Assembly (NCBI GenBank): GCA_032027045.1
Contig: JAVSMU010000001.1
Location: forward strand, 1,182,646-1,246,645
Origin: Truepera sp.
GTDB lineage: Bacteria > Deinococcota > Deinococci > Deinococcales > Trueperaceae
Direction: 5' to 3'
DNA: 64,000 nt
Position 1 is the stretch's first letter, and every line of letters starts with the position of its first letter. Below the pieces are notes generated by a model. That model made no database searches, had not been told where the DNA came from, and worked only from the letters and a program-made list of their open reading frames with translations. The position numbers were made by a program, and so were the translations under genes. Below are positions 50,741 through 54,577 of the stretch, one piece after another.

Positions 50741-50814
50741 GCGCCAGGGCTACGGATGGTAGCTGGTTGCGCCGCCGCGCCAGGGCTACGGTTGGCTGCT
50801 AGGCGCGCCGCCGC
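50741..50814. repeat. Duplicated 38-base unit spanning the rsmB stop codon
   Basis: Units 50741-50778 and 50777-50814 match at 32 of 38 bases with a 36-base period. The second contains the rsmB stop (50801-50799) and its last codons. Confidence 0.8.
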
Positions 50815-52124
50815 AGCCTCGCCAGGTAGAAACCGTCGAGGCCCTCCAGTGGCAGGACGAACCTGCCGGCCCCGACGGCCAGCGTGGTCAGCGGTAGGGC
50901 GAAGTCCTCGGCCTGGAACTCCGGGTGGTGGTCCAGGAAGTCCGCGACCACGGCCGGGCCCTCCTCGGCGGTCAGTGCGCAGACGGCGTACTGCAGCATG
51001 CCGCCGGGCGCGGTGACTCCGGCGGCGCTCTCCAGCATGAGGCCCTGGCGCGCGGCGGCCGCGGTCACGTCGCCAGGCGTGAGGCGCAGCTTGATCTCGG
51101 GGTGACCGCGGAGCGTGCCGGTGCCGCTGCAGGGTGCGTCGAGCAGGACGAAGGGCGCCGGCTCGAGGTCGAGAGGGTGGGTCAGGTCGGCGATCACGTG
51201 CTCGGCCGCGAGGCCCAGCCGAGCCAGGTTCTTGCGCGCCGCAGCCACGTGCCGGGGGTTCAACTCCACGCTCGTCACCTCGGCCCCCAGCGCCGCCAAC
51301 ACGGCGCTCTTGACGCCGCCCCCGCTAGCGAGGTCGAGGACCCGGTCGCCCGTTCCAGCTCCGAGCAACAGCGCGGCGGCCAGTGAGGTGGGGTTCTGAG
51401 GCTGCACGAGTCCGAGCTCGAATGCCGACAGCCGGTCGACGCTCAACGGCGCCCTGACCCGAAGGCTCTTCGGCCAACCCGGGTGCACGCTTACTTGCAG
51501 GGGAAGCGCCGTCGCGCCTTCTCGGGTCAGTTGCGCCTCGGCATCCTCGCTGAAGGCGGTCAACCAGAGTGGCTCCGGCTCGAGCATGGCAGCAGACGCC
51601 GCCCCCGCTGCGGCGGCGCCCAGGCCCCGCACCAGGGACGCGCATAGCCATGACGGTAACGAGGCTTCAACGGCAGGGTCGCCGGCGGTCGCCGGGGGAC
51701 GCACGCGCCGAAGCACGGCGTTCACCAGGCCAGAGAGCGCCTTCGCCTCGGCCTTGGTCAAGCTCACCCACGCGTTCACGGCCGCGTAGGCCGGCGTGCC
51801 GCGGTAAAGGATCTCGTACGCCCCCAAGCGAAGTATCTCGCGCACGGCAGGGGGGAGCCGCTCCGGCTTGGCCAGGAGCGGCGCCAGCGCGGCGTCCAGG
51901 AGGATGCGCCGCCGGGCCGCGCCGTACGCGAGGTCCGTGACCAGGGCGCGGTCCTCCCGCGCCAGGCCCGATCTTGCCAGCAGGTCGTTGAGGGTCGGCG
52001 CGAGGAACTCGCCATGCTCCATGCGGTTGAGCGCCTCGAGCGCCACCCGCCGCGCGGCCTCGCCGGGCCTCCCACGCGGTACGCCACGGTCGGTCGTCGA
52101 GTTAAGCGCGCCGCCCTTCGCCAT
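50799..52124 (-). CDS. rsmB: 16S rRNA (cytosine-C5) methyltransferase, RsmB type
   Basis: 441 aa. N-terminal NusB-like helical RNA-binding domain (about 20-150: RRVALEALNRMEHGEF, LAYGAARRRILLD) and C-terminal methyltransferase. SAM motif LDLASGGGVKSAVLAALGAEV, catalytic DAPCSGTGTLRGHPEIK and the second Cys in LQYAVCALTAEEG. In E. coli RsmB modifies C967. Motif I is slightly unusual (ASGGGVKS in place of the common APGGKT). ATG at 52124 is preferred to GTG at 52148 because TACATT lies 6 bases before it. Confidence 0.88.
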   Translation of the reverse strand: MAKGGALNSTTDRGVPRGRPGEAARRVALEALNRMEHGEFLAPTLNDLLARSGLAREDRALVTDLAYGAARRRILLDAALAPLLAKPERLPPAVREILRLGAYEILYRGTPAYAAVNAWVSLTKAEAKALSGLVNAVLRRVRPPATAGDPAVEASLPSWLCASLVRGLGAAAAGAASAAMLEPEPLWLTAFSEDAEAQLTREGATALPLQVSVHPGWPKSLRVRAPLSVDRLSAFELGLVQPQNPTSLAAALLLGAGTGDRVLDLASGGGVKSAVLAALGAEVTSVELNPRHVAAARKNLARLGLAAEHVIADLTHPLDLEPAPFVLLDAPCSGTGTLRGHPEIKLRLTPGDVTAAAARQGLMLESAAGVTAPGGMLQYAVCALTAEEGPAVVADFLDHHPEFQAEDFALPLTTLAVGAGRFVLPLEGLDGFYLARLRRRA

Positions 52125-52130
52125 CAGATC

Positions 52131-52136
52131 AATGTA
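52131..52136 (-). promoter_or_regulatory. Likely -10 box of rsmB (leaderless)
   Basis: TACATT on the minus strand, 6 bases before ATG at 52124; it decides the rsmB start. Confidence 0.45.
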
Positions 52137-52166
52137 CGCCACCGGCACTCGGCGGAAGGGCCCAGG

Positions 52167-52469
52167 TCAGGTGGGGTCTTCGTTCCTCGAGCGCTCCTCG
52201 CCAGCCAGCATGAACGACTCGATCAGGAACCTGACGGCCGTGCGCTCCTCGTCGTGGAGCTCCAGCTTCACGAACGAGGGGACCGTATGCAGCCCGAGCC
52301 CCTCGGACTCGATGTACGACCGCGCGATGGCGATGGCCTTGACGGCCTGGTTGACGGCGTGCGGCCCGATGGCCTGCACCTCCACCTCGCTGGCACTCCG
52401 CAATAGCGCCGCGATGGCGCCCGCCACCGAGTTCGGCCGGGATGAACCTGATACGCGTAGGATTTCGAT
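52167..52469 (-). CDS. spoVS: Stage V sporulation protein S family (SpoVS), probable AUC start
   Basis: About 100 aa. The conserved SpoVS sequence is plain: EILRVSGSSRPNSVAGAIAA, then VEVQAIGPHAVNQAVKAIAIA and DEERTAVRFLIE. SpoVS is a small Alba-like nucleic-acid-binding protein, widespread in non-sporulating Deinococcota. The family starts M-E-x-L-K/R-V-S. Here that position is an ATC codon (52469-52467) with GGAGG 6 bases upstream, and no ATG, GTG or TTG is near. The only standard start in frame is at 52655, which would add 62 residues unlike the family. I favour AUC initiation; the alternative is a long N-terminal extension. Confidence 0.75.
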   Translation of the reverse strand: MEILRVSGSSRPNSVAGAIAALLRSASEVEVQAIGPHAVNQAVKAIAIARSYIESEGLGLHTVPSFVKLELHDEERTAVRFLIESFMLAGEERSRNEDPT

Positions 52470-52569
52470 GTCCGACCTCCAAGACGCAAATCTGGTTAGA
52501 TTCTGTACCGCCAGCGGGCGACCGGCGTACTCGGTCGTCACGTCCGGGCGCCGAGAACGGCCGCGGCGC

Positions 52570-52648: not shown

Positions 52649-52678
52649 TTGACACGGCCCGAAGGGCGCCCTTATAGT
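52649..52678 (+). promoter_or_regulatory. Sigma-70 type promoter of the ilv-leu operon
   Basis: TTGACA (52649-52654), an 18-base spacer and TATAGT (52673-52678). Transcription should begin at about 52685-52687, at the start codon of the leader ORF. Confidence 0.8.
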
Positions 52679-52867: not shown

Positions 52868-54577
52868 ATGACGGGTTCGGAAGTCGTGATGAAGATGCTC
52901 GAACGGCACGGCGTGGAGGTGATATTCGGGCACCCGGGCGGCGCGATCATGCCGATCTACGACGCGCTGTACGACTCGAAGATCAAGCACGTGCTGGTGC
53001 GCCACGAGCAGGGCGGCGCCCACATGGCCGACGCTTACTACCGCGCCAGCGGCAAGGTGGGGGTCTGTTTCGCGACCTCCGGGCCGGGGGCCACGAACCT
53101 GGTGACCGGCCTGGCCACGGCGATGATGGACTCCTCGGCCGTCGTCGCCATCACCGGCAACGTGCCCAGCGGGCTGATCGGCACCGATGCCTTCCAGGAG
53201 GCCGATGTCTACGGCATCACCGGGCCGGTCACCAAGCACAACTACCTCGTGAAGGACGTGGCCGACCTGCCGCGAGTCCTTGCCGAGGCCTTCCACATAG
53301 CCGGCACCGGCCGCCCCGGGCCCGTGCTGATCGACGTGCCAAAGAACGTCCAGCTCGCCAAGTTCGAGGGGTCGCTCGACGTCGAGATCGACCTGCCCGG
53401 CTACCGCCCGACGGTCGTGGGGCACGCGAAGCAGATCCGTAAGGCCGCCGAGGCCGTCATCGCCGCCAAGCGCCCCGTTCTCATCGTCGGGGGCGGCGGG
53501 CAGGTGGCGCCGCGCGAGGTGGCGGACCTGGTCGAGCGGACGGGCATCCCCGTCATAACGACGCTCATGGGCATCGGGTCCTACCCGCCCGCCGCGACCG
53601 AGACGCTGGGCATGCCCGGCATGCACGGGACCGTAACGGCGAACAAGGCCATCAGCAACTGCGACCTGATCCTGGCGGCCGGGATCCGCTTCGACGACCG
53701 CGTTACCGGCAAGATCAGCCGCTTCGCGCCCAACGCGACGGTGGTGCACATCGACATCGACCCGGCCGAGATCGGCAAGCTCGTGAGGGCCCACGTGCCG
53801 GTCGTGGGCGACCTGCGCGACGTGTTGCCCCGCCTGACGCAGGAGCTCGGCTACCTCGACATCGGTCCCTGGCGCGAGACGCTGCAGGGTTGGAAGGCCA
53901 CCTACCCCGAGAAGTACCAGCTCGACAAGCCACTGGTGTCTCAGGAGGTCCTCGCCATGCTGCGCGAGGCGACGGGCGGCAACTGCATCGTCGCCACCGA
54001 GGTCGGTCAGCACCAGATGTTCGCGGCGAGGCTCCTACCCACGACCAAGGCGCGCTCCTTCATCACTTCGGGCGGCCTGGGCACCATGGGCTTCGGCCTG
54101 CCGTCGGCCATCGGCGCCGCCATCGCGCGGCCGGGTGAGACGGTGGTGCTGGTCGCCGGTGACGGCAGCATCCAGATGAACATCCAGGAGCTCGCCACGC
54201 TATACAAGCAGAACCTGCCCATCGTCATCGCCATCCTCAACAACGGGATGCTCGGCATGGTGCGGCAGTGGCAGGAGCTCTTCCACGCCCAGCGTTACAG
54301 CGAGGTGTACCTCGCCGATTCCAACCCCGACTTCGCGAAGCTGGCGGGCGCCTACGGCATCGAGGGCCACAACATCTTCGACCGCGACGCCGCCAGGCCG
54401 GCCATCGAGGCCGCGATAGCCGCGAAGAAGCCGGTACTGCTCAACTTCTTCGTGTACGAGGCCGAGAAGGTGTTCCCGATGGTGCCGTCCGGCGCCGGGG
54501 TCGACGAGATGATCCTGGGCGACCAGGAACCGGCCGACGAGCCGACCGAGCCCGAGGTCGCGGCGGTGACCAAGTGA
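52868..54577 (+). CDS. ilvB: Acetolactate synthase large subunit
   Basis: 569 aa. TPP/FAD enzyme that condenses pyruvate with pyruvate or 2-ketobutyrate, first common step to valine, leucine and isoleucine. The TPP-activating Glu is in HEQGGAHMADAY; later motifs are NLVTGLATAMMDSSAVVAI, VTKHNYLVKD, the TPP site GDGSIQMNIQELAT and NNGMLGMVRQWQ. ATG at 52868 follows GGAGG. Stop overlaps ilvN. Confidence 0.95.
   Translation: MTGSEVVMKMLERHGVEVIFGHPGGAIMPIYDALYDSKIKHVLVRHEQGGAHMADAYYRASGKVGVCFATSGPGATNLVTGLATAMMDSSAVVAITGNVPSGLIGTDAFQEADVYGITGPVTKHNYLVKDVADLPRVLAEAFHIAGTGRPGPVLIDVPKNVQLAKFEGSLDVEIDLPGYRPTVVGHAKQIRKAAEAVIAAKRPVLIVGGGGQVAPREVADLVERTGIPVITTLMGIGSYPPAATETLGMPGMHGTVTANKAISNCDLILAAGIRFDDRVTGKISRFAPNATVVHIDIDPAEIGKLVRAHVPVVGDLRDVLPRLTQELGYLDIGPWRETLQGWKATYPEKYQLDKPLVSQEVLAMLREATGGNCIVATEVGQHQMFAARLLPTTKARSFITSGGLGTMGFGLPSAIGAAIARPGETVVLVAGDGSIQMNIQELATLYKQNLPIVIAILNNGMLGMVRQWQELFHAQRYSEVYLADSNPDFAKLAGAYGIEGHNIFDRDAARPAIEAAIAAKKPVLLNFFVYEAEKVFPMVPSGAGVDEMILGDQEPADEPTEPEVAAVTK

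Follow-up and report, generated by a model that had tools for sequence, protein, structure and literature searches.

The DNA analysed here (the window, 64,000 nucleotides of a Truepera sp. genome) carries a short gene, spoVS, on its minus strand, together with the rRNA methyltransferase gene rsmB and the divergently oriented ilvB. The coordinates of these genes and of the signals discussed below are collected in Table 1. The Pfam profile for SpoVS matches residues 64-145 of the longer open reading frame with its positions 1-82 of 83. It is thus covered over the full domain and the product belongs to the SpoVS family. The best solved relative is the protein from Thermus thermophilus (2EH1), whose residue 2 aligns to residue 2 of the SpoVS protein from the window. 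Because of the profile match and this alignment, the methionine that opens the proteins of the family falls on an ATC codon. The first-pass annotation had placed the conserved family start on this triplet, and both the structural relative and the family-wide comparison described below agree with it.

Table 1 Features of the spoVS region, and in-frame stop codons upstream of spoVS in related genomes (positions in codons relative to the start).
Feature	Position	Strand	Evidence and remarks
spoVS coding sequence, 100 aa plus stop	52167..52469	minus	PF04232, E 9.9e-34; PDB 2EH1, E 5.9e-31
spoVS stop codon	52169-52167	minus	
ATC start codon of spoVS, at the family Met position	52467..52469	minus	ATC/ATA in 24/34 Trueperaceae genomes
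Shine-Dalgarno sequence GGAGGT, 5 nt 5' of ATC	52475..52480	minus	Direct reading; invariant in six same-genus genomes
-10-like element CAGAATC (genus CANAATC)	52499..52505	minus	Alignment of six genomes; ~30 nt 5' of ATC
GTG 24 codons 5' of ATC, closest in-frame canonical codon upstream; not accepted as start	52539..52541	minus	Precedes the -10-like element; frame-breaking indels 3' of GTG
rsmB, 16S rRNA C967 methyltransferase, NusB and RsmB/F domains	50799..52148	minus	Pfam; 18 nt after the spoVS stop
ilvB, divergent neighbour, control gene	52868..54577	plus	Normal ATG start
Upstream in-frame stops, part 1	G009 TAG -2; G019 TGA -7; G017 TAG -12		
Upstream in-frame stops, part 2	G013 TGA -30; G002 TAA -35; second G014 copy TAA -5		

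The gene order spoVS, an optional gene for a neutral Zn-peptidase (PF04298) and then rsmB is found at nearly all Trueperaceae loci, and spoVS is followed by the peptidase gene and/or rsmB in other families of the phylum as well. In the genus of the window (50799-52469) the peptidase gene is missing between spoVS and rsmB, and the two genes probably reside in the same operon. On the opposite strand, a near-consensus sigma-70 promoter (TTGACA-18-TATAGT, 11/12 matches) is located upstream of ilvB at 52649-52678.

The spoVS start codon across Trueperaceae

Trueperaceae are relatives of Thermus. A total of 39 genomes of the family were compared, 34 of which contain spoVS. In these, the gene starts with ATC in 22 cases, with ATA in two, with ATG in seven (including G028, where the ATG sits one codon off the alignment) and with GTG in three. 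As start codons, both ATC and ATA are very rare. AUA, AUC and AUU are referred to as AUH codons in the following and the other start class on the tree as NUG; the position of the family methionine is thus occupied by an AUH codon in 24 of the 34 genomes. GTG or ATG is used instead in all sampled genomes of Thermaceae and of the remaining families of the order, and more distant outgroups (Bacillota, Collinsella) have ATG in all five spoVS copies. In one Trueperaceae genome that is 96% complete (G008), spoVS was not found; its infC gene (L144) starts at ATA. Another, G014, encodes up to four SpoVS-like copies (L038 = G014:C580, L039, L040), and one divergent copy among them has an ATA start with an in-frame stop five codons upstream.

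The comparison with sister species suggested by the first-pass annotation therefore favours AUC, and the recurrence of ATC with the same Shine-Dalgarno spacing in 22 genomes, plus ATA in two, is more than chance. One substitution introduced by sequencing or assembly would be enough to turn ATG into ATC, and such errors do occur. However, the same codon is present in 22 separately assembled genomes, some of them consisting of a single contig, and this conservation rules out the error, the probability of which we regard as negligible.

A tree was built from rpoB, infC and spoVS under LG+G4, with the start residue omitted. On this tree, a single gain of the AUH start at the base of Trueperaceae suffices, with three reversions to NUG, in g2, in g16 and in a subclade of g7. 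In favour of a conserved start class, these switches between AUH and NUG number four and the nucleotide changes at the third base of the start six, compared with a median of 10 at other third positions of spoVS. Note that some rows of the alignment are short and that G012 and G014 sit on long branches, which makes the deepest placement of the gain less sure. The pattern fits a single origin of the AUC/AUA start in the common ancestor and its retention in most Trueperaceae since then. As three lineages went back to AUG or GUG, the trait is dispensable.

Leader of spoVS and alternative start sites

The ATC codon is preceded by a Shine-Dalgarno sequence, as had been noticed initially for the motif GGAGG at a distance of 6 nt; read as GGAGGT, it ends 5 nt from the ATC. 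Among the 24 genomes with an AUH start, 22 have a match of 6-8 nt at a spacing of 4-8 nt, the exceptions with weak matches being G012 and G034. The initial observation that ATG, GTG and TTG are absent near the start likewise stands, since the nearest such codons in the window are the GTG 24 codons upstream and a further GTG at codon 15.

In principle, translation could begin at an upstream canonical codon, such as the GTG at 52541-52539, which would place the isoleucine inside a SpoVS protein with an N-terminal extension. The open in-frame extension with its GTG is indeed present in the window, and the codon statistics can also be read in this sense. Among genomes with an AUH start, this codon ends in C in 22 and in A in two, while the internal codon for Ile34 ends in C in 22, in T in one and in A in one. 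The start thus varies like an ordinary conserved isoleucine codon, so that the codon pattern alone cannot separate an initiator from an internal isoleucine, and the preference for AUC over AUA or AUU may merely follow genome composition. The neighbouring codon behaves differently: wherever codon 2 encodes glutamate it is GAA, while GAG predominates at other glutamate sites, and GAA at codon 2 is a signature of an initiation region.

It is the in-frame stops upstream that separate the initiator from an internal isoleucine. Six AUH copies of spoVS contain neither ATG nor GTG nor TTG between the upstream stop and the AUH codon and thus have no usable canonical start in this stretch, the closest stop being only two codons away. 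For these copies (G009, G019, G017, G013, G002 and the second G014 copy) an upstream start is ruled out. A downstream start is ruled out as well, because the next ATG, GTG or TTG is codon 23 in G017, which we take to be Truepera radiovictrix, and codon 43 in G019, both inside the domain. With stops 12 and seven codons upstream, respectively, and the gap downstream, initiation at AUC is nearly forced in these two organisms.

The leader argues in the same direction. An alignment of six same-genus genomes revealed frame-breaking indels in the upstream sequence, while the Shine-Dalgarno sequence GGAGGT, the segment ATCGAAATC and the -10-like element CANAATC are invariant. A match to the sigma-70 consensus was not found on the spoVS strand. 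The position of the -10-like box would imply a 5' untranslated region of about 20-25 nt, in which case the upstream GTG, which precedes the box, would not be transcribed. In the same genus (the window and loci L002, L003 and L014-L016) a GTGACG motif (minus strand, about 52536-52541) is also invariant, some 30 nt 5' of the -10-like box. Given the stops in relatives, the indels, a Shine-Dalgarno sequence positioned exactly 5' of the ATC and the location of the GTG, an N-terminal extension is very improbable. From these comparisons, translation of spoVS almost certainly begins at the AUC codon.

infC, control genes and precedents

The infC gene of the same genome starts at ATT after AGGAGGTG. 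Throughout Trueperaceae, infC has an AUH start in all 32 readable genomes (ATT in 6, ATA in 15 and ATC in 11); note that G014 infC is misaligned in this comparison and was read as ATA by eye. The control genes ilvB, rpmI and rplT do not have a single AUH start among 68, of which 67 are ATG or GTG and one, in ilvB, aligns to CTA. Lineage-wide use of AUH starts is therefore not seen in these three controls; as far as five genes tell, the AUH class appears to be common to infC and spoVS and not a general habit. A scan of the window for further AUH starts with a Shine-Dalgarno sequence returned noise only, and few window genes have a 6-nt match. In the sister family f5 (L161-L164; G040, G044, G048, G052), GTA occupies the aligned position of the infC start codon, which is AUH elsewhere. 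Two of these loci have no ATG nearby, and infC of this family may start at GUA.

To our knowledge, very few bacterial genes outside infC have a conserved AUH start. A precedent is pcnB of Escherichia coli, whose AUU start reportedly keeps the amount of its product limited; spoVS resembles it in the start class, while pcnB is an enzyme gene and uses AUU. Within the same phylum, Baudet et al. in 2010 reportedly provided proteomic evidence for non-canonical initiation codons in Deinococcus deserti. The start of infC likewise combines an AUH codon with a strong Shine-Dalgarno sequence. However, the product of infC regulates its own synthesis, whereas SpoVS does not serve as an initiation factor, and spoVS has AUH in Trueperaceae only, mostly as AUC. 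The first-pass annotation had taken infC as the model for limitation of SpoVS dose. This is not the best analogue: according to the discussion in PMC13009471, the AUH start of infC serves autoregulation by IF3, and the dose-limiting case in the literature is pcnB. In Staphylococcus aureus, ccpN (AUA) and cvfC1 (AUU) also pair a strong Shine-Dalgarno sequence with a non-canonical start that is conserved (PMC13009471). They are other genes in another phylum with other codons, and their starts were established by ribosome profiling and reporters, that of spoVS by comparison alone. With infC, pcnB and the two staphylococcal genes as precedents, the spoVS start would belong to a known, though very small, kind.

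Possible consequences for SpoVS synthesis and initiation control

AUA, AUC and AUU are start codons rejected by IF3, which destabilises such mismatched initiation complexes. At spoVS, the ordinary initiator tRNA-fMet would read AUC (AUA in two genomes) with a mismatch at the third base, its CAU anticodon pairing with AUC at two positions, and the strong, well-spaced GGAGGT could hold the mRNA long enough for some complexes to pass IF3. Synthesis of SpoVS would then be kept low and would rise when IF3 is scarce, as for infC. We consider this scheme as a whole, an IF3-discriminated AUC start with low, IF3-dependent production of SpoVS, to be likely. What comparison shows is the position, conservation and single origin of the start and a start class common to infC and absent in the controls; the reading by tRNA-fMet, the low output and the dependence on IF3 are inferred.

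The individual parts of the scheme differ in strength. That the AUC start lowers SpoVS output is very likely, and a dose-limiting role is plausible. In S. aureus, conserved AUU and AUA starts with extended Shine-Dalgarno sequences yield about 10% of the output of AUG, and ccpN in rich medium up to 30% (PMC13009471). We put the chance that spoVS is subject to IF3-responsive regulation with a physiological role just short of even. Alternatively, the AUC start may be real and only set a low SpoVS dose, with IF3 regulation of no physiological weight, as argued for pcnB. The roughly tenfold reduction at staphylococcal non-AUG starts is in line with such a function, and the returns to AUG or GUG in three clades suggest tuning of the dose. 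On the other hand, established knowledge of IF3 predicts that any AUH start responds to this factor, and infC in these cells belongs to the same start class. A function restricted to dose has a substantial probability, if one distinctly below even.

A further explanation is autoregulation, in which SpoVS, a protein with an Alba/IF3-C type fold, would limit initiation at AUC by binding either the 30S subunit or the initiation region of its own mRNA. SpoVS has been assigned to the Alba superfamily of DNA- and RNA-binding proteins, the fold of which is similar to that of IF3-C (PMC11621453). However, the similarity is weak (TM 0.4-0.6, PMC11621453) and silent on binding to 30S, and we consider autoregulation decidedly unlikely.

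Returning to an IF3-discriminated start, the neighbouring rsmB gene offers a link to initiation. RsmB methylates 16S rRNA at C967, and this base is stacked on C34 of the initiator tRNA; in E. coli, initiator selection is relaxed when RsmB or RsmD is lost (PMC7949028). C34 is the anticodon position that would have to tolerate the AUC mismatch, although the connection is suggestive only. Loose inspection of the P site, caused by low IF3 or undermethylated ribosomes, would lead to more translation of spoVS, the first gene of the operon, and through coupling or mRNA stability the output of rsmB would increase as well. That the AUC start acts in this way as a sensor of initiation stringency with a homeostatic loop through rsmB is unlikely; if true, the loop would amount to homeostatic control of initiation fidelity in Trueperaceae.

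In any case, annotation limited to ATG, GTG and TTG would mis-call spoVS throughout the family. A family-wide AUC start that fits a single origin sits here on a widespread gene, and the succession from GUG to AUC or AUA and back to AUG or GUG provides a natural series for testing selection on such starts.
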